From Oligoflexia bacterium (GTDB taxonomy: Bacteria; Bdellovibrionota; UBA1018), in NCBI GenBank assembly GCA_903881565.1, contig CAIRTR010000323.1, forward strand, positions 1 to 55,050: a stretch of DNA of 55,050 nt, given 5' to 3'. The notes under the pieces were generated by a model. That model saw only the letters and a program-made list of their open reading frames with translations. It made no database searches and was not told the origin of the DNA. The translations under genes were made by a program, and so were the position numbers. This document shows, one piece after another, positions 4,447-49,711 of this stretch. The first letter of the stretch is position 1. The number at the start of each line of letters is the position of its first letter.

Positions 4447-5413
4447 ATGAAAAATCAAATTCAAAGTGGTTTATCGGCCCAAGAAATTACAAGGAGTATT
4501 TCGGATGAAAACCTCTTATCCCAGATTCGGCGCCTTGCTGCAGAAGAGCGTAAGTTAACGACGCAGACTCTATGCAGGACTTGGCTTTGACTCGCTCTTT
4601 GCATACGCCGTCAAGGAACTTGGTTATTCTGAAGCCAGTGCTTCGCGCCGGATAAATTCGATGAGGTTACTTAAAGAAGTCCCTAGTGCCGCTGCCTCAA
4701 TTAGAACTGGCGCGCTGAATCTATCGACCGTGAGTACGGTGCAGTGCTTTTTAAAGCGCGAGGAGCGGGACAAAGGGAAAATCTACTCTTCCGATGAAAA
4801 GCGTGAACTTCTAGATAAGATGGAGAATCTCTCGGTTCGTGAATGTGAGAAGATCTTGTTTCAAGTTTCGCCGGGATCGGCCAAGTCGAAAGAAACGAGC
4901 AAAGCGATTTCGAATAATGAGACTGAACTTAGGGTCGTCGTGTCGGATGAGTTGATGAAGAAGTTTGAGAAAATCAAAGGCCTGGTGGCCCATTCTTACC
5001 CAAAGTTGAGTATGGCGCAGCTTGATCCAGATCGAAAAAATGAGCGTCGCAAGAAGCGTAAAGAGAGCAAAGACGAAAAAGCTGCTGATGCGGATACTAC
5101 CCCTCAAACACATTCGACTCCGGCGCCGGAGTCAGGTTTATCGCTAAAGCAGAGTCCAAGGTATATTCCCGCAGCTATCAGGTCTGAGGTGTGGGCGCGC
5201 GATAAAGGTAAATGTACTTTCGTTTCCCTTGAAACAGGTAAGAGATGCGAATCAAGGCATGGGCTGCAATACGACCACAAGATACCCCTCGCTTTGGGAG
5301 GGCAAACTGAACTGTCGAACCTAAGAATCTTATGTTCTCGTCATAACTCTTGGGAAGCGATTCAGAAGATCGGTCATGCGACGATGAAGAGATATATTCC
5401 GAATTTAGGATGA
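4447..5413 (+). pseudogene. HNH endonuclease, frameshifted copy 1
   Basis: Translation from ATG 4447 gives SISDENLLSQIRRLAAEERK and then runs into a stop. Compared with copy 2 at 18220, about 35 bases are missing after ACGACGCAG, which shifts the frame. The original frame resumes before 4661 with RRINSMRLLKEVPSAA and continues to the end. A second, in-frame loss removes the FELLADR segment after LSMAQL. The C-terminal HNH domain is intact: RYIPAAIRSEVWARDKGKC, then YDHKIPLALGG and NLRILCSRHN, giving the D-H / N / H metal-binding core and CxxC-like cysteines. Such proteins cut or nick DNA. A 250-residue protein could still start at ATG 4661, but the N-terminal part would be lost. Confidence 0.8.
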
Positions 5414-18219: not shown

Positions 18220-18762
18220 ATGAATAACAAAGCCTCGGCAAATTTGTCAGCAAGAACCCTATCCGATGAAAATCTTTTGTCCCAAATCAGATGCTTGGCC
18301 GCCGAGGAGCGTAAGCTCACGACTCAAGTCCTTGAGTTATTGCGGGAGGTGGAGCGGCGTAGACTTTTTGCGGGTCTCGGCTTTAGCTCGCTCTTTGAAT
18401 ACGCTGTAAAAGAACTGGGCTATAGTGAAGCCAGTGTCTCACGGCGGATAAATTCGATGCGGTTACTCAAATGCAGAGAAGCTGGACCTTTTGGCAAAAA
18501 TGGAGAACCGCTCCGCCCGTGAGTGCGAAAAGATCTTGTTTCAAATTTCTCCAGAATCGGCAAAGCGTAAAGACAAGATGACGGTGGTTTCGGCGACCCA
18601 AACTGAAATCAAAGTCGTGGTATCAGAAGAGGTGGTAAAGAAGTTTGAGAAGCTCAAAGGACTGTTGGCTCACTCCAATCCGAATCTAAGCATGGCGCAG
18701 CTTTTTGAGCTTCTTGCGGATCGCATTCGACGATGAAGCATTATATTCCAGACTTGCAATAA
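18220..18762 (+). pseudogene. HNH endonuclease, truncated copy 2 (HNH domain lost)
   Basis: The N-terminal part is intact from ATG 18220: LSDENLLSQIRCLAAEERKL, a leucine-rich helix LELLREVERRRLFAGLGFSS, then KELGYSEASVSRRINSMRLL. After that a deletion joins codon MRLLK to the block EKLDLLAKMENRSARECEKI in another frame, giving an early stop at 18520-18522. The second block runs to LSMAQLFELLADRIRR. A second deletion then removes the whole HNH domain, because the following bases encode only the family tail MKHYIPDLQ before TAA 18760-18762. Both fragments align with copy 1 at 4447, so the two copies document each other's losses. No product with nuclease activity is possible. Confidence 0.85.
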
Positions 18763-18789: not shown

Positions 18790-19572
18790 TCATTTTTTAA
18801 GCTGTGGAGTTGGAAAATTTCCATCGAGTTCAAAATCTGAGCGCCGAAAAACAGTTCGATCGGTCGGGACTTGGATTGCCTGAAGGCCGAGGGGTTTGAA
18901 TTCTACTGTTTCGGCGCTGCTTACGCAAAACCATGAACCGTCCTCAACAGGTTTGCGCGCTTGAAAGGCCGAAATTTTCGTGACCGCGATATTGAATCCG
19001 AGTTCCGCACATCTTGCTGATTTGAATCGAATCACTTCTGCGCCGCGATCACGAAGTTCTGAACCGACCTTCTGGGAGGCGGTATAGGAGTTAGGCGCTG
19101 CGAGGTCTTTCTCAAATTTATGGAAAGGAGGACGCGTCAAATCAGCACAAGACTTTGTTTTAACTTGGGCTGCAAATACCGTGATCGACGTCTCGAAGAC
19201 ACCAAAGTCCGCGTGTGAACCTGAACGAAATAGAAAGCTGTAGTATGCCTTCTCGGCAAAAGCCGTTTCAATATTCTCTGATCCATACCAAAGTCCACGC
19301 CGGTCAGAAGTTCCGAGACGCGATCCGTGTTTTAGGGGGGGGTAACGAAAGGGAGTCCAAAGAAGATAGTGATAGCGGTTGCACTCATCGTCGTGAGGCT
19401 GAGGAGGTTTTGCATTATCGATCAACTCTTCGAGGATCGCTTGCTCCTCGTCGCTATCGACGAGCTTTCGTGTTGCAACGATGTGTTGCGCTTCAACGAC
19501 TCGCCAAGGTTTTCCTTGGTAAGCGGTAAATTTAAACTTTGGCGCGCATTGCGTCCAAATATCCTGCGACAT
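18790..19572 (-). CDS. RES-domain toxin
   Basis: 260 residues. RES domain features: PWRVVEAQHIVATRKLVDSD near the N-terminus, TPFRYPPLKHGSRLG around 92-106, the LWYGSENIETAFAEKAYY block that carries a conserved Glu and Tyr, and SYTASQKVGSELRDRG near 180. RES toxins phosphorolyse or hydrolyse NAD+, arresting growth. The start ATG at 19572 lies inside the upstream antitoxin gene (41-base overlap), so translation is coupled. The R, Y and E residues expected in the active site are present, so the gene looks functional although its neighbours are decayed. Confidence 0.85.
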   Translation of the reverse strand: MSQDIWTQCAPKFKFTAYQGKPWRVVEAQHIVATRKLVDSDEEQAILEELIDNAKPPQPHDDECNRYHYLLWTPFRYPPLKHGSRLGTSDRRGLWYGSENIETAFAEKAYYSFLFRSGSHADFGVFETSITVFAAQVKTKSCADLTRPPFHKFEKDLAAPNSYTASQKVGSELRDRGAEVIRFKSARCAELGFNIAVTKISAFQARKPVEDGSWFCVSSAETVEFKPLGLQAIQVPTDRTVFRRSDFELDGNFPTPQLKK

Positions 19573-19918
19573 GAATGAGCCCTTGAATGTTTTTAGTGAG
19601 ATTGAGTGGGATTCCGCCTAAGTGATCATTTGAAGCCTTTAGCCATCGAGAGCAAAGCTCAGACTTGCCCCCAAACAAAGTGTCGAGGCTGCGGTAGATA
19701 CGAACCAGCTGCGAGGCTGCCTCGCCCTCTTTAGTTTCAAGGGAGATCGTAGATTGGCCTTGGTACATTCGCGAGAGGGTGGCTTCACTGATGCCAACGA
19801 TTTGTGAAAGCTCCTTTCTTGAAACGCCTAAAAGATCGGCTGCACGAAGCAATGCTTTTGTAATTACCGCTTCTTTCTTAAGCTGGTCCGGGCTGGTTAC
19901 CATTTTTGCGGGTGCCAT
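19532..19918 (-). CDS. Xre/ParS-type antitoxin (DUF2384)
   Basis: 128 residues from ATG 19918, which has AGAGAGG seven bases upstream; the longer start at 19951 lacks such a site. An Xre helix-turn-helix is seen at LLRAADLLGVSRKELSQIVG followed by ISEATLSRMYQG. The C-terminal toxin-binding domain has LVRIYRSLDTLFGG, WLKASNDHLGGIPL and GLIHVAGYLDAM, the typical MbcA/ParS/Xre pattern. It neutralises the RES toxin and probably represses the operon. The antitoxin is first and the toxin second, as usual for this pair. Confidence 0.85.
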   Translation of the reverse strand: MAPAKMVTSPDQLKKEAVITKALLRAADLLGVSRKELSQIVGISEATLSRMYQGQSTISLETKEGEAASQLVRIYRSLDTLFGGKSELCSRWLKASNDHLGGIPLNLTKNIQGLIHVAGYLDAMRAKV

Positions 19919-19953
19919 AAATAGCCTCTCTTTCACTTGCAAGAATAACATGT

Positions 19954-21560: not shown

Positions 21561-22292
21561 ATGGCAAAGGGTGTTCAATGCGCGGTTCTGGCACTGGGGG
21601 TTATTGGGGGGACTTTTGCCGCTTTTCCGGGCCACTCTGCACAACTTAAAGTCGATGTCCCGGAGACCGGTTGTGAATCCCAATATACCGCCCCTCAACT
21701 CAAGAGCATGATTGAGGATCGGGATGTTAATGCGCAGGCGCGGCTTGATCAGGATTACTATGGCTTCAAAGCTGCAATGCTCGTTCACACGTCCGTGGAT
21801 GTGGCTTACAAAGTTTTGACGGATTACGCTGTGTATAAAAAACTGGTGCCCTATATCGATCGAACTGACTTTGATCCCAGCACGAAGAGGCTTATTTTGG
21901 AGGGAGGGATTTGGAAATTTCGTTTAAGCTCCCTCATTGAGTTTAGTGAAACGCCGGGTAAACTAGTCCGTTATCGCATTATCGCCGGCCATTTTGCAGG
22001 CCTAACAGGCGAAATGCGGTTTGAAGGCAAGGGCGAAAAAGGCGTTTTGGTTTGTTTTAAAGGGGGGGTGAGTGGAACGCAATGGCCCCCCAGATTTGTA
22101 ATCGAACGCGGAGCAGAAATAGTCTTTGGTTTTACAGCAAAACGTATGCGATCCTATATGGAGTCCCAAGAAGAACAAGGTACCAATGACGCTAGGGATG
22201 CCATGAAGGCAACTAACCGGGAAAAAGGAGCTTCCCCCTATGATTCAAAAGATTCAAAATCAATCCCCCAACCTCGAAAACGTATTAATTAA
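21561..22292 (+). CDS. Exported SRPBCC/START-like protein
   Basis: 243 residues. A hydrophobic N-terminus (CAVLALGVIGGTFAAFPGHS) indicates export. Residues about 60-210 have the COQ10/START (SRPBCC) pattern: a first strand FKAAMLVHTSVDVAYKVLTD with the DYAVYKKLVPYI motif, strands around RLILEGGIWKFRLSS, and a long C-terminal helix EIVFGFTAKRMRSYMES. Members bind hydrophobic ligands in a deep pocket. The C-terminus (residues 215-243) is charged and overlaps the next gene by 53 bases in another frame, so both are probably translated from one message. The ligand is unknown; a periplasmic lipid or quinone carrier is a guess. Confidence 0.6.
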   Translation: MAKGVQCAVLALGVIGGTFAAFPGHSAQLKVDVPETGCESQYTAPQLKSMIEDRDVNAQARLDQDYYGFKAAMLVHTSVDVAYKVLTDYAVYKKLVPYIDRTDFDPSTKRLILEGGIWKFRLSSLIEFSETPGKLVRYRIIAGHFAGLTGEMRFEGKGEKGVLVCFKGGVSGTQWPPRFVIERGAEIVFGFTAKRMRSYMESQEEQGTNDARDAMKATNREKGASPYDSKDSKSIPQPRKRIN

Positions 22293-22989
22293 TCCTCGTC
22301 GATCCTTTGATGAGCGAAGAAGACTTCCTCGTTTGAGTGTTTCAACGGAGCAGTTTCGTCTAGAGCTTCTTGATAAAAATTCGCACGGGAAAGTGTTTTC
22401 CGTCAGCGATCTTTCCGAAACCGGAATGGCGCTTCGAGTTTTGGATGTGCAAGACCTGAAGTTTTTTCCCGTCGCAGCAGAGCTGAAGGGCACTCTTAAC
22501 TTGAGGGGCAAGAAAATTCCTGTTCAAGCGAAAGTTCGCCATCTGACACCCGAATCCATTGGGTGCGAATTTATTGATCTGGCCTCCGAAATAAAACAGC
22601 AACTCTCCTCTTTTTTGGATCCTGCAAAATTGGGCAGCGAACTTAAGCCGCTCCCTGTTTCTGAAGGACGAATGCTTTGGTATCATGGTCCTTCGGGGAC
22701 TGATCTTTTGATGTGGCGGCATAACGACGGTCAATATTGGAAGTTCACGCTCTACGTTTTGGGAAGCTACATTCAATGGGAAGAGGGTCCTGGAGTTTCA
22801 ACCGGAGTCAGCAGAGCGTCGGGGGATCTGGTGGAACAACGAGGCATTCTAAGGCTTGAAACGTGCCTGCTTGAGGCCGATGACAAGGTGGATTCAGATA
22901 AATTACTCATTGCAAAAAAACTTCTGCTGGGATCTAACTTGCCCCAAGATCTTAAGAAATGGTGCGTTCGGCATTTTGAGTCCACCTAG
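22240..22989 (+). CDS. PilZ domain protein
   Basis: 249 residues; AAGGAG lies 10 bases before ATG 22240. The N-terminal PilZ domain has the c-di-GMP-binding RxxxR as RRLPR (within ERRRLPRLSV) and the (D/N)xSxxG motif as DLSETG, followed by strands ending IGCEFIDLA. Residues about 140-249 form a separate alpha/beta region with no recognised family. Cytoplasmic c-di-GMP effector is the likely role. The start lies within the upstream SRPBCC gene, so the two are coupled. Confidence 0.8.
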   Translation: MIQKIQNQSPNLENVLINPRRSFDERRRLPRLSVSTEQFRLELLDKNSHGKVFSVSDLSETGMALRVLDVQDLKFFPVAAELKGTLNLRGKKIPVQAKVRHLTPESIGCEFIDLASEIKQQLSSFLDPAKLGSELKPLPVSEGRMLWYHGPSGTDLLMWRHNDGQYWKFTLYVLGSYIQWEEGPGVSTGVSRASGDLVEQRGILRLETCLLEADDKVDSDKLLIAKKLLLGSNLPQDLKKWCVRHFEST

Positions 22990-44711: not shown

Positions 44712-46208
44712 TTAAGATGCCATCTTTTGAGGTTGGGCAGAAACTTGACTCTTGGGAAGGCGGACGACGAACTTCGTGTTACCACATTGGGCATCAATCG
44801 AGAGGCTCCCTGCATGGCCCTCTATTATCCCTTTTGAGATCGACAGGCCTAGTCCGGTGCCTTTGCCGACTTCTTTGGTCGTGAAAAAAGGTTGCATCAT
44901 TTTTTGGCGAACCACCTCAGGGATGCCTGAACCACTGTCCATTACCGAGAAAACGTAGGAGTGCTCCTCTTCTTCGACCGAGACTTTAACCCATTTTTTG
45001 TCTAACTGAAGGACCGCATCGTGGGCGTTGTTCAAGAGATTCAAGAAGACCTGTCCGAGCTGCGTGGCTCGACAGGCAATCGTTATTTCGGGATCAAACT
45101 CAGAAACCTCAAGTGCGACGCCGTGACTCTTGAACCGGCTCTGACATAACTCAAGGGCATCATCGATAATGGATTTTAGTTTGCAGTCTACAAACGGATC
45201 TTCTGTGCCATCTCGGGAAAAAGATTTGAGGCCTTTGATGATTTTCGAAATGCGCTCGGCCATCGATTCGATGCCGACGGCGTGCTTGGCTAAGGCGGGC
45301 AGGTCAAGGCGGTTGCGGGCAATCATGCTCGATATCTGTTGGCTTTTTCCAGAAATGACCGCGAGGGGATTATTGATCTCGTGCGCGAGTCCGGCGGCCA
45401 TTTCGCCAAGCGCCGAGAGTTTGCTGGATTGCAGCAGCCCTGCGTGCGCTTGTTTTAGTTCATCGGTTCGGCGCTCAATCGTTTGCTCAAGGCCTTGGTT
45501 GATTTCTTCAATTTTATTGTTTCGTTTTTCGATCATGACCAGCATCGAATCAAACTCAAGCGAAAGACCAAAAATTTCCTCAATCTGGATTTTAGATTCC
45601 GATTCCCGCAGCACTGAATACGAGGAGTTGCCCGTTTGAGAGATTTTTCTAATGACCTGAAGAAGGGAGGTGATTTCACCGCTTATCTTTGTAGTCGCTA
45701 GGCGCGCAATAAGGAGCGCGACCATAAAGCCCACTGCTAAAACGAGAGTTCCGATGAGAAGGTAAGTGAGGAGTGAAGCGTAGTCGATTTCGTTGCGCAC
45801 TGTTAAAATCAGGGAGCCAACAGGTTCGCCTTGGGAGAGAATTGGGAACGCGTAGCTCCCCGAGCTGACGATTTTTGGTTGAGTCGCCGTAACGGGTTCA
45901 TCAGGCGGAAAGCTGGCAAACACATGGCCTTTTAAGTCGTAAATAGTTCCGGTTTTTAAGACAGGGTGGTTTTTGATCGAGCCCAAAGATTTAGTGGCTT
46001 CTTTTTGATCTTGGAAAACGATCGCACTTGTGAGGTTTTGAGTGAGCACATGGGCCGTTGATTCGACGGTTTTAATCTCATTTTGTTTTGAATGAATATA
46101 ATCATTGATAAGGAACCCTAGGCCGCATGTGAGCAGGATCGCGGTCGTAACGACGAATTGCCCCCTCTTGATGGCAACCTCTAATGGAATTCTGGGCCCT
46201 TGGCTCAT
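44712..46208 (-). CDS. Sensor histidine kinase with YfiN-like (CHASE8) periplasmic domain
   Basis: 498 residues. Two membrane helices at about 18-36 and 146-170 flank a 110-residue periplasmic domain with [20 protein letters not shown] and [15 protein letters not shown], typical of the CHASE8 sensor of YfiN-type diguanylate cyclases. A HAMP-like segment and a coiled coil (about 225-260) follow. The kinase core has the H box [19 protein letters not shown] (His276), the N box [13 protein letters not shown], and G boxes DSGSGIP and [11 protein letters not shown]. No receiver is attached. It probably phosphorylates the divergent response regulator at 48959. Its start overlaps the YfiR gene stop by four bases, so the two proteins are made together. 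Confidence 0.88.
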
Positions 46209-46771
46209 TCGATCAGTTTCCCCAATTTTAGCAACTGAGAGCTCAATTCGAGACCCTCTTCTTTTGCTTGGTGTAAATTTATTTCAAACCGCAAACGCTC
46301 ATCAACGGTATAAAAATTAACGATTGCGCCTTCGAGGGCTAGCCCCTCTTCATAGGTAACGGACAAACAACGGCATCCCTTTAATTTTTTTAGGGCCGCA
46401 CTGGGGGTGTGTGCAACATCCGGAATTAGCACGACAATTTCACCTCGAGTTTGTTCCAGCTTTGCCATGGCCGCCGACTGAACCTCTACCTCAAAGTCGT
46501 TGAGTTTTTTGGCCCCGATGAGGGTCTTCAAATCCTCAGCAAGACTGTCATTATCCACTACGATAAGCTTGATCCTATGCTCTTTGGGCTTCTTGGAAAC
46601 CAGGCTTTTCCATTGGGTAAATTTGGAGATATTCCAGATGAAGGCACTCAAGAGTTTTGTTTCTGAAGTGGTGTAAGAATGAATTTCATTCGCGCCCGTT
46701 TGGAGCGGCAGGAGCGAGGCGAGGAGAGAGGCGAGTAGCGAGGTAAGGAGGATAAAAAGTATTTTTTGCAT
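46205..46771 (-). CDS. YfiR-family periplasmic protein (DUF4154)
   Basis: 188 residues from ATG 46771, 23 bases after the receptor gene stop; a longer start would run into that gene. The signal peptide is a Leu/Ser/Ala repeat (LLTSLLASLLASLLPL), built from degenerate 12-base units. The YfiR pattern follows: LLSAFIWNISKFTQWKS, then IKLIVVDNDSLAEDLKTL, EIVVLIPDVAHTP, RCLSVTYEEGLALEGAIVNF and a final LRFEINLHQAKEEGLELSSQ. In Pseudomonas, YfiR binds the periplasmic part of YfiN and holds it inactive. Here the only protein with a YfiN-like sensor is the kinase encoded next. The usual CRC-type cysteine pair is present as GCRC. Confidence 0.88.
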   Translation of the reverse strand: MQKILFILLTSLLASLLASLLPLQTGANEIHSYTTSETKLLSAFIWNISKFTQWKSLVSKKPKEHRIKLIVVDNDSLAEDLKTLIGAKKLNDFEVEVQSAAMAKLEQTRGEIVVLIPDVAHTPSAALKKLKGCRCLSVTYEEGLALEGAIVNFYTVDERLRFEINLHQAKEEGLELSSQLLKLGKLIE

Positions 46772-46794
46772 TATTTTCTTCGGTTGAAAAAGTT

Positions 46795-48792
46795 TTAGAG
46801 CTTTACTTGATACCCAATCTTCAGCACCCAATCCCGGGAGGGCCCAGGCACGGGAGGGTGCCCGCCGTCGTAGGGCTGAATAAATCTAAAGTCTTGATCC
46901 AAAAGATTATAGACGCCTATGCCTGCGGATAATCCGGGAGTAAAAAGGTCAGTGCGTTCCAAGAACACGTTTGTCAAAGCCGTGGGGTTGAAGGAGCGTA
47001 CGCTCAAACCCGTGGCGCTACCGGCATCATAGTCAAAACCAAATCGGCGAGATAAGAAGGTCACGTTTGTGTTGAGGCGCGTGTGGTCGTCAAATAATTT
47101 GAAATTTACGTTGAGCGAGACTTTGTGATTGGCCATCCCCAAAAGCGAATCGGGATGATCTGGAACCTGGTAATCGATGGGTTCCTGCGCTTTGGTGTGA
47201 AAATAAGAATAATTCAGATCGATATAGCCCCAGCTGGGCCTTATCTTATAGTCCCATTCAAGCCCATACGTGCCTGTTTCGCTGCTGTTTTCGTAGGTTT
47301 CGGCCCCACTCGAATAGCCATATATGATCGGATCCGTGAGTGAGATGGTATAAGCGTTGAGGGTCGTAAACATGGTTTGCGAGAGGCGATAACCGATCTC
47401 CGTTTCAGCCACTTTTGTCGTCTCGGGTTTTAGACTGGAGTTTGCTCTTAGATTTTCAATTCCCGGCGCTCTAAAACCCCAGCTATAAATGAGTTTCGTA
47501 TGAAAATCGCCGATTTGTTTGACAGCGCTGAAGCGGGGCACAAAAGCCTGACCCCCGCTATTTTGACTTTGGTAGCGGCCCCCGAAGGTAAGATTTGCAA
47601 ATTCAGGGGTCCAGTCAACTTCTGTAAACGCCGCATGGCTATAGTAGGAGATTTCGTTGCGGCTATTGGGAAAGGTGCGCTCAGTGAAGTCATGAGCTCT
47701 TTGCATTGCGCCTTCACCGCCGAGGTGAAAAATAAGCTGCGGATTTAGTTCTGCTCTCAAAGACAATTGGCCTTTTATTTCCTGCGCCTTAACGTCGTAA
47801 AAAAGTCCAGGAACCGTAACACTCTCTGGGTTGGTAGAGTTCCAGGGGATATTTTGTTTTAGATGGATTTCAGGCGATAACGAAACAGTCTGAGAAACGG
47901 GCGCGGTGTATTTTGCGCCCAATAGAATGGATTCAAAATTATTGCGTACCGCAAGGGGCGCGTTCGTGCCGTAGGCGGTTTTATCGGTTGTGTTAAAATG
48001 GTCGTAGATGAGCCGAAAGATCCAGCGGTCATTGGAGAGGCCTAAGTTTACAAAGGCGGGATTGAGGTTTGAATTTCCCTTTAAGTTAAAAGTGTCCCCC
48101 AGATTATCCGTAAAATCGCGTTCACTTCGGTTGCCTTGGCCAATAAAGCCATAGCCGCTTACGTTCCATTCTCCAAATTTTTTAGCGTAACCAAAACCCA
48201 AGTATCGTTGAGCAAACGTTTGGCTCATTTGCCCATAAGTTCCGTTTATAACAAAGCCGTCCAGTTCTGAGGCGCCTTTGGTGATGATATTAATCACGGC
48301 GAGTTCGGCATAGCCTCCGTGAGCGGCAGAGCCCGGGCCTCGAATCACCTCGAGCCGACTAATAGAGTCGACTGGAAAATGATTGCCCATTTGAAGGGTG
48401 TTGAATGAGATTTCGTTCATTTCCTCGCCATCAATCAACAAGAGCACTTTGCCTTCATGAGCCCACATCCCGCGCACGGCGATGCCTACGGTGCCTTGAG
48501 TGTCGGTTGCGAGAGAGAGTCCGGGGACAAGATTTAAGACATCAATGAGGTCTCGGGCGCCCATGTTTTTGATCTCTTCGGCGGTCACGACAGTCACGAT
48601 GGCGGGGGTTGATTGTATGGCCTTTTTCTCTCGGGTTGCGCCAGAGATTTTGACGTTCATTAAATCCTCCAGGCTCATGGAGTTTATTTCGGAACTTGGT
48701 TCTGAGGGCACCTCACAGTGACCCAAAGTGGACAAAGAGGGGAGAAGGGCTAAGCCGAGCGAAACATAGGAGAGGGCAAGGATTGGATTCAT
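46795..48792 (-). CDS. TonB-dependent outer-membrane receptor
   Basis: 665 residues from ATG 48792. Signal peptide to about TLGHC. The N-terminal segment MSLEDLMNVKISGATREKKA is typical of one receptor subclass that often lies beside YfiR genes. The plug domain has TPAIVTVVTAEEIKNMGARD, LIDVLNLVPGLSL, IAVRGMWAHEGKVLLLIDG and the RLEVIRGPGSAAHGGYAELA block. The barrel covers about 170-665 and ends in a hydrophobic strand (DWVLKIGYQVKL). It imports a ligand (siderophore, vitamin or other) using TonB energy; no ExbBD/TonB gene is in view. No long N-terminal signalling domain is present, so signalling would go through YfiR. It is the first gene of the operon. Confidence 0.92.
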   Translation of the reverse strand: MNPILALSYVSLGLALLPSLSTLGHCEVPSEPSSEINSMSLEDLMNVKISGATREKKAIQSTPAIVTVVTAEEIKNMGARDLIDVLNLVPGLSLATDTQGTVGIAVRGMWAHEGKVLLLIDGEEMNEISFNTLQMGNHFPVDSISRLEVIRGPGSAAHGGYAELAVINIITKGASELDGFVINGTYGQMSQTFAQRYLGFGYAKKFGEWNVSGYGFIGQGNRSERDFTDNLGDTFNLKGNSNLNPAFVNLGLSNDRWIFRLIYDHFNTTDKTAYGTNAPLAVRNNFESILLGAKYTAPVSQTVSLSPEIHLKQNIPWNSTNPESVTVPGLFYDVKAQEIKGQLSLRAELNPQLIFHLGGEGAMQRAHDFTERTFPNSRNEISYYSHAAFTEVDWTPEFANLTFGGRYQSQNSGGQAFVPRFSAVKQIGDFHTKLIYSWGFRAPGIENLRANSSLKPETTKVAETEIGYRLSQTMFTTLNAYTISLTDPIIYGYSSGAETYENSSETGTYGLEWDYKIRPSWGYIDLNYSYFHTKAQEPIDYQVPDHPDSLLGMANHKVSLNVNFKLFDDHTRLNTNVTFLSRRFGFDYDAGSATGLSVRSFNPTALTNVFLERTDLFTPGLSAGIGVYNLLDQDFRFIQPYDGGHPPVPGPSRDWVLKIGYQVKL

Positions 48793-48958
48793 ATTCTGTT
48801 CTTTCGGAAGAATGCGTCCGGAAGCTAAATTATTTTGATAAACCAAAGACTTGTCAAATTTTTGTGGTGTTTGTGATGTTGGAGGTGCGGGTCTTAGTGT
48901 TTCATTGTGTCAAAGTATTTTACTCAAGTATCGTGTGATCTGGTCGATAAGGGATATT
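48793..48958. promoter_or_regulatory. Divergent promoter region between receptor operon and response regulator
   Basis: 166 bases between the start codons of the receptor and the response regulator. AT-rich parts and TTGTC-type words are present, but no clear operator or riboswitch. It must carry at least two promoters, so a shared regulator is possible. Confidence 0.4.
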
Positions 48959-49711
48959 ATGGGTGTTTCACTTTCTGGCCTTAGAATTCTTGTCGCCGAT
49001 GACGAAGTTGAACTGCGAACCATCTTGAAAGAAGAATTAGAGTATGAAGGGGCAACTGTTTTTGTCGCTGAAAACGGGCTCGTGGCCTATGAAATTGCGC
49101 GCCGAGAAAACGTCGACTTGATCGTCAGCGATGTGCGCATGCCAGGGGGCAGTGGCATTGATTTACTCGATAAAATCAAGGCCAACAATATTTATCAGCC
49201 CGTTGTGCTTTTTATAACCGGCTATTCGGATCTTGCGCTGGATGAGTCATACGCAAAAGGGGCCGACGCCGTATTTTCAAAACCATTCAAGATCTCGCAG
49301 ATTATTGAGGTGATTCAGAAATTATCGAGCCCGTTTTCCAAACGGTATGCTGTGCCGCCTTCTGTCGAAGCAAAGCAAGTCGTCGTGAAAATCTATCATG
49401 ATTTGAAACAGGCGATTTTGGAACAGCATTTACAGATTGGTCGCGGCGGCATTTTTCTTCAAGTGGAAGATGCTGGAAAACTTGATAAAACTGCGGACTG
49501 TGCTCTCAATATTACTTTTGAACTAGGTCCGGTTTTAGATATTCAGTTTACCGGTTTGATCCGCTGGACTCGCGGCAAAGATGAAGCCGATAAACGTCCG
49601 GGGATCGGGGTGGAATTTAAGTATCTCCCACCCGCATGCCAAAAAATCCTTGAAGCAATTATTTTGGAAACCGATCCAGTTCCTTCAATCCCTATTGGCC
49701 GGCGGTGCTAA
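48959..49711 (+). CDS. Response regulator with receiver and PilZ-like domains
   Basis: 250 residues from ATG 48959, with AAGGGA six bases upstream. The receiver domain (1-125) has Asp14/Asp15 in LVADDE, phospho-acceptor Asp58 in LIVSDVRMPGG, Thr87 in FITGYS and Lys108 in VFSKPF, so it is intact. Residues about 140-245 have a PilZ-like barrel: HLQIGRGGIFLQVED, then LDIQFTGLIRWTRGKDEADK and RPGIGVEFKYLPPACQ. The RxxxR part is not obvious, so c-di-GMP binding is uncertain. A receiver joined to PilZ is common in Bdellovibrio and Myxococcus types. It is divergent from the receptor operon and is the likely partner of its kinase. Confidence 0.85.
   Translation: MGVSLSGLRILVADDEVELRTILKEELEYEGATVFVAENGLVAYEIARRENVDLIVSDVRMPGGSGIDLLDKIKANNIYQPVVLFITGYSDLALDESYAKGADAVFSKPFKISQIIEVIQKLSSPFSKRYAVPPSVEAKQVVVKIYHDLKQAILEQHLQIGRGGIFLQVEDAGKLDKTADCALNITFELGPVLDIQFTGLIRWTRGKDEADKRPGIGVEFKYLPPACQKILEAIILETDPVPSIPIGRRC

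Follow-up and report, generated by a model that had tools for sequence, protein, structure and literature searches.

Receptor-YfiR-CHASE8 operons: a divergent member in an Oligoflexia bacterium and its recurrence across phyla

The locus and its genes

The window, by which we mean the whole 55,050-nucleotide stretch of DNA that was analyzed, comes from an Oligoflexia bacterium (contig CAIRTR010000323.1). On its minus strand the genes for a TonB-dependent receptor, a YfiR-family periplasmic protein and a CHASE8 histidine kinase follow one another in a single operon, and a gene for a receiver-PilZ regulator runs divergently on the plus strand. The receptor stop lies 23 bases from the YfiR start, and the YfiR and kinase genes overlap by 4 bases (ATGA). 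This gene content, both spacings and the divergent regulator had been described in a sequence-only reading of the locus, and they were confirmed by the ORF coordinates and Pfam. The arrangement is not due to chance, because it recurs in other genomes. The features are:

44712-46208, minus strand: histidine kinase (ATG start, 498 aa, P0001; Pfam CHASE8, HisKA and HATPase_c above cut-offs)
44748-45068, minus strand: HATPase_c domain with N, G1 and G2 boxes (Pfam; invariant residues in alignment)
45210-45410, minus strand: HisKA domain with phospho-acceptor His276 in AHEINNPL (Pfam; His276 invariant in alignments)
45804-46082, minus strand: CHASE8 sensor domain (PF17152)
46205-46771, minus strand: YfiR-family periplasmic protein (ATG start, 188 aa, P0002; PF13689, E = 9e-27)
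46795-48792, minus strand: TonB-dependent receptor, first gene of the operon (ATG start, 665 aa, P0003; Plug PF07715, E = 1e-17)
48628-48681, minus strand: receptor N-terminal motif SMSLEDLMNVKISGATRE at the TonB-box position, ahead of the plug (small profile)
48829-48857, minus strand: candidate sigma-70-like promoter of the operon (TTGACA-17-AATAAT, an 11/12 consensus match only)
48959-49711, plus strand: response regulator with receiver and degenerate PilZ domains, Asp58 (Response_reg 1.5e-22, PilZ 4.6e-06)

The sigma-70-like candidate site precedes the receptor start by 36 bases, and no Fur box was found upstream of this gene. The listed ORF of the regulator starts at a TTG (48851), with an in-frame ATG at 48959 and the stop at 49711; Asp58 is given in the numbering from the ATG. 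On the 3′ side of the operon, two ORFs read by eye like glutamate synthase subunits, and past the regulator lie an ORF without a family and an APP1-like phosphatase (Pfam). Among the neighbors scanned with Pfam there was no match to a YfiB/OmpA-like gene.

YfiR and the CHASE8 sensor

As had been proposed from the sequence alone, the sensor of the kinase is of the CHASE8 type: PF17152 matched residues 43-135 with 50.7 bits against a cut-off of 27 (E = 2.3e-13). The same protein matched HisKA (4e-08) and HATPase_c (5.6e-20), and N390, N394, D424, G426, G428, G450, G452 and G454 of the latter domain are invariant in the alignment. Two-component hallmarks are present in both proteins, with His276 and the N and G boxes in the kinase and a receiver with Asp58 in the regulator. 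The HAMP-like stretch from the second transmembrane helix to HisKA gave no Pfam match. In the AF2 model of the kinase (mean pLDDT 81.6, pTM 0.44), two long helices surround a mixed sensor and are accompanied by a standard kinase core; the best PDB matches of the model were the kinase cores of solved kinases, with nothing on the sensor fold, and the CHASE8 sensor alone had no sequence match in the PDB.

The periplasmic protein carries a DUF4154 (YfiR/HmsC-like) domain and gives a profile match to P. aeruginosa YfiR. Its AF2 model (pLDDT 88) finds the solved YfiR 4yna as its best PDB fold match (E = 3.9e-08; TM 0.73 by target). A search of viral contigs for YfiR returned no relatives. Residues implicated in YfiR-YfiN binding include the Phe of the YfiN AAVVF motif and Phe162 and Leu183 of YfiR (PMC3375315). 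In the window, Phe162 and Leu183 of YfiR align with the residues of the same number in P. aeruginosa and both are kept, and sensor residue Phe65 (codon 46014-46016) lies within SAIVF, the counterpart of AAVVF. Phe65 is invariant in YfiR-linked CHASE8 proteins (92 of 92), and Phe162 of YfiR reaches 94% conservation. Three CHASE8 kinases whose genomes gave no YfiR match (L183-L185), a set too small to serve as a control, were compared as well: the Phe is retained in two and missing from the weakest. The broad YfiR alignment (A2) was too diverse for the contig scan and a narrower one (A3) was used, whose single pattern in the YfiR C-terminus biases both the conservation of the Leu183 region and the kinase:cyclase ratio. 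Because the paired cysteines of P. aeruginosa YfiR are not kept, control of folding may differ in the window protein.

Among 58 related genomes, YfiR and CHASE8 both occur in the same 13 and neither occurs in the other 45 (Fisher 3e-13, ignoring phylogeny and joint transfer); the genome of the window itself has one of each. Across 369 genomes of the phylum, 20 have both, 5 have YfiR only, 4 have CHASE8 only and 340 have neither (Fisher 1e-24, ignoring phylogeny), and in four of the five YfiR-only genomes a custom profile detected a CHASE8-like kinase adjoining YfiR (L140, L144, L145 and L146). Divergence was matched as well. In 58 kinase triplets, distance correlations, which ignore phylogeny and joint transfer and whose kinase-core values may be lowered by saturated kinase-core distances, gave a rho of 0.56 for YfiR with the CHASE8 sensor, 0.23 for YfiR with the kinase core of the same polypeptides, and 0.09 for CHASE8 with the kinase core; the value for YfiR with the receptor was 0.36. 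All exceeded the largest of 300 permutations, YfiR with the kinase core only just, except CHASE8 with the kinase core, which stayed within the permutation range. The YfiR-sensor pairing is supported by this shared occurrence, the matched divergence and the kept binding residues. YfiR distances track CHASE8 much more closely than the kinase core, and CHASE8 itself hardly tracks that core, which suggests that sensors are exchanged among outputs together with their YfiR. The tree built from YfiR and CHASE8 requires no fewer than five switches from kinase to cyclase output or back, and a kinase (L057) and a cyclase (L061) are sisters in it.

We collected 76 YfiR loci with at least 2.5 kb of flank on each side. 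A CHASE8 protein is encoded directly downstream of YfiR in 61 and within three genes in 68, and receptor, YfiR and CHASE8 stand all together in 57. Their outputs vary (kinase, hybrid kinase or GGDEF), and the loci come from Pseudomonadota, Thermodesulfobacteriota, Myxococcota, Bacteroidota, Nitrospirota, Planctomycetota, Omnitrophota, Acidobacteriota and others. A neighborhood search for receptor-YfiR-kinase triplets had been named as a check in the sequence-only reading; with any CHASE8 output counted, the triplets recur widely. In G010, the nearest relative, the triplet is found with 48-60% identity to that of the window.

The core of this arrangement has been described. Malone et al. (2012) reported distant YfiR/YfiN systems to be mostly without YfiB, with other modules, sensor histidine kinases among them, often standing in for the GGDEF part, and they suggested a modular YfiR-sensor core; TonB receptors are unmentioned there (0 occurrences) (PMC3375315). 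The window likewise has YfiR next to a CHASE8-type histidine kinase and no YfiB. The earlier claim of a rewiring to a kinase is right in that CHASE8 sits on a histidine kinase, but the wiring is not new (PMC3375315), and NCBIfam models the triplet. With the YfiBNR (TpbB) system of P. aeruginosa the window shares a YfiR-family protein, a CHASE8 sensor on an inner-membrane protein and the residues named above. It differs in its output (HisKA and HATPase_c, not a GGDEF diguanylate cyclase), in having a TonB-dependent receptor as operon partner with no YfiB OmpA-like lipoprotein nearby, and in a YfiR without the cysteine pairs.

NCBIfam release 20 holds models for the same three gene types side by side, NF053590 (TOL_0244 receptor), NF053591 (TOL_0243 YfiR-like) and NF053592 (kinase near YfiR-like); the triplet is already known to its curators. 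The window proteins score 94.6, 74.5 and 92 bits against cut-offs of 645, 125 and 194, respectively, all below cut-off, and NF053591 and NF053590 are the best models for the window YfiR and receptor. By sequence, the window triplet is a divergent relative of this one. In open-access PMC texts we found no paper on the receptor-YfiR-kinase triplet or linking such a receptor with YfiR, and no bench study of the trio. Caulobacter HmrABCX was considered as a described relative and set aside, with no mention of YfiR or CHASE.

The receptor and a proposed signaling chain

A receptor gene lies directly upstream of YfiR in 53 of the 76 loci and within three genes in 63. Receptor density was 41 per 350 kb near YfiR vs. 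2 per 481 kb in the outer flanks (∼28-fold), and loci with a cyclase output still have the receptor (e.g., Geomonas, L116-L120). Among relatives, the window receptor is most similar to other YfiR-linked receptors. At E ≤ 1e-15, the 58 relatives contain homologues in each of the 13 YfiR genomes and in two more genomes, G008 (56% complete, with the gene extending to the edge of its contig) and G034 (77% complete, with a receptor without the N-terminal motif). The proposal that the receptor, and not YfiB, is the outer-membrane partner is in keeping with this recurrence and with the lack of a YfiB/OmpA gene in the neighborhood. At three loci (L095, L101 and L114) two receptor-YfiR pairs adjoin within one locus, and in L095 and L114 CHASE8 proteins of both kinds, a cyclase and a hybrid kinase, flank the double pairs.

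YfiR-linked receptors share an N-terminal segment of the type DLTxLSLEELMNVEVTSASKK, with the LSLEELMN stretch directly ahead of the TonB-box position, whereas other receptors have a plain TonB box there. A motif profile, built from 41 of the matched rows, detected 61 of 71 YfiR-adjacent receptors at E 0.01 and 68 at E 0.1 (20 and 27, respectively, of the 30 other rows). Among comparison receptors the profile matched four only, all from YfiR genomes, and the LSLEELMN-type motif was absent from the examined receptors of YfiR-free relatives. When the receptor N-terminus and plug were used as query, matches that included the segment were almost wholly confined to YfiR genomes. This distribution suggests that the motif is a candidate YfiR-coupling element, and as such it would be a directly testable contact site.

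We consider it fairly probable that receptor, YfiR and kinase form one trans-envelope signaling chain, in which the TonB-dependent receptor would be the outer-membrane input, YfiR the periplasmic go-between, and the kinase would read YfiR via its CHASE8 sensor. By analogy with Pseudomonas, the C-terminal hydrophobic patch of free YfiR (Phe162, Leu183) would dock on the Phe65 patch of CHASE8 and hold the kinase in one state; that this state is a repressed one is likewise carried over from that system. Ligand at the receptor would cause YfiR to be captured or altered, kinase activity would change, and the kinase would phosphorylate a response regulator, possibly the divergent receiver-PilZ protein. 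We infer the direct binding of YfiR, the sign of control, the receptor as switch, and which ligand and response regulator take part. Against this chain stand the YfiR loci with no receptor nearby (about one in six) and the missing cysteine pairs. The core of the sequence-only reading stands, supported by the CHASE8 sensor, the recurrence of the triplet, the co-occurrence and matched divergence of YfiR and CHASE8, the kept interface residues and the receptor as recurrent outer-membrane partner; the rewiring is not a discovery, and the suggested role of the PilZ protein in joining phosphorylation and c-di-GMP is unsupported.

The main rival, which we regard as rather unlikely, makes YfiR a ligand carrier: the receptor would import a small molecule, loaded YfiR would switch the kinase, and the receptor would never touch YfiR. 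The linkage of receptor and YfiR would then be explained with no new contact. The fold search with the window YfiR also matched Rhodothermus substrate-binding proteins and an ABC binding domain, and the YfiB pocket of P. aeruginosa YfiR accepts vitamin B6 and L-Trp, though with a Kd of tens of millimolar (PMC4887326). However, the periplasmic N-terminal motif of the receptor tracks YfiR, and pure import would not need such a motif. Receptor and YfiR distances are also correlated, though less than those of YfiR and the sensor. It is quite improbable that the receptor is a regulated target or a bystander, merely co-transcribed, with YfiR and the CHASE8 kinase alone sensing envelope or redox state: 13 of the 76 loci have no receptor within three genes and P. 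aeruginosa YfiR senses redox independently of YfiB (PMC3375315), but receptors are enriched next to YfiR across phyla and outputs, homologues occur in all 13 YfiR genomes among the relatives, YfiR-linked receptors share the N-terminal motif, and the window YfiR lacks the redox cysteines.

The receptor-YfiR-CHASE8 operon is a widespread, under-described signaling operon, and the window holds a divergent member. The kinase wiring of YfiR has been known since 2012; the receptor arm and its motif are the part worth testing. Known signaling by TonB-dependent receptors runs through anti-sigma factors. We tentatively put forward, with somewhat less than even confidence, that TonB-dependent receptors serve YfiR/CHASE8 signaling generally as its outer-membrane arm, those bearing the LSLEELMN segment binding or releasing YfiR on ligand, with YfiR then gating kinases or cyclases, a sigma-factor-independent route of surface signaling in many phyla. 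If this is true, (i) the receptor-YfiR-CHASE8 chain would be a second route of TonB-receptor signaling with interchangeable outputs (kinase, hybrid kinase, cyclase); (ii) it would account for the coupling, in many environmental bacteria, of a ligand reaching the surface to phosphorylation or c-di-GMP; and (iii) the outer-membrane part of YfiBNR would be one option among several.

The receiver-PilZ regulator and other genes of the window

The divergent regulator had been placed within the circuit, as an output that could join phosphorylation and c-di-GMP in one protein. Its presence is independent of YfiR (5 of 13 YfiR genomes vs. 19 of 45 others, p = 1), the nearest relative (G010) has no homologue at E ≤ 1e-20 despite its triplet, and the gene is not a conserved neighbor at other triplet loci. 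By this profile and these neighborhoods the regulator was rejected as a conserved fourth component. The PilZ domain reads QIGRGG (mostly xGRGG in the family), and c-di-GMP binding is not expected, because RxxxR and [DN]xSxxG are missing; the proposed joint output finds no support in the sequence.

Whether the regulator belongs with this kinase is a question separate from the operon mechanism. From its independence of YfiR, its absence from G010 and the other neighborhoods, it is nearly an even call, leaning slightly to the negative, that it is unrelated to the operon and has its kinase elsewhere. Against this, 12 of 22 receiver-PilZ homologues have, no more than 2.5 kb away, a kinase matching this kinase core (∼E 1e-40 or better), where by rough estimate, given only a handful of such kinases in each genome, ∼1% would be expected by chance, and further homologues adjoin kinases in other fetched loci. 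At the window locus this kinase is the only one nearby, and in G030 a homologue sits downstream of YfiR and its kinase. Because the receiver-PilZ family is usually found beside kinases of this core subfamily, phosphotransfer from kinase to regulator is plausible at this locus. The assignment is not unique, because the genome has four further kinases of the subfamily, most of them without an adjacent receiver gene.

In G030 (L018, 10761-12902) the YfiR-CHASE8 kinase genes precede a second kinase, which is spread over two ORFs, and then the receiver protein. Pfam gives the latter a receiver match only, but its alignment with the window regulator spans both domains. No receptor lies near this YfiR, and receptors bearing the motif are on other contigs.

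Regulators with the GRGG variant of PilZ adjoin NtrB-like kinases (AHEINNPLA core) in L172, L173, L174, L177 and others, and apparently the two make a common two-component pair in the phylum. The window regulator is homologous to those and likewise has a kinase of this core subfamily nearby, but here the kinase carries CHASE8 and sits in a receptor-YfiR operon on the opposite strand. In other phyla a receiver-GGDEF gene sometimes comes after the kinase (9 of 76 loci), and, judged from gene content, a link to c-di-GMP exists there by this path. In L060, L072, L089, L092, L108, L122, L126 and L128 such a gene directly follows a CHASE8 hybrid kinase, and the two may form a phosphorelay that returns to a c-di-GMP output.

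Elsewhere in the window, a second PilZ-domain protein (22240-22989, plus strand; 2.9e-08) has no receiver domain and is unlinked to the operon. At 18790-19951 (minus strand), a RES-domain protein (PF08808, 9e-23) and its Xre/MbcA/ParS-type antitoxin partner (PF20432, PF09722) make, by their domains, a toxin-antitoxin pair of the RES-Xre type. An HNH-endonuclease-like gene occupies 4661-5413 (plus strand), and a stretch 13 kb away (18220-18736, plus strand), with two ORFs and similar peptides (RECEKILFQ.SP.SAK), is related to it and is probably a broken second copy.
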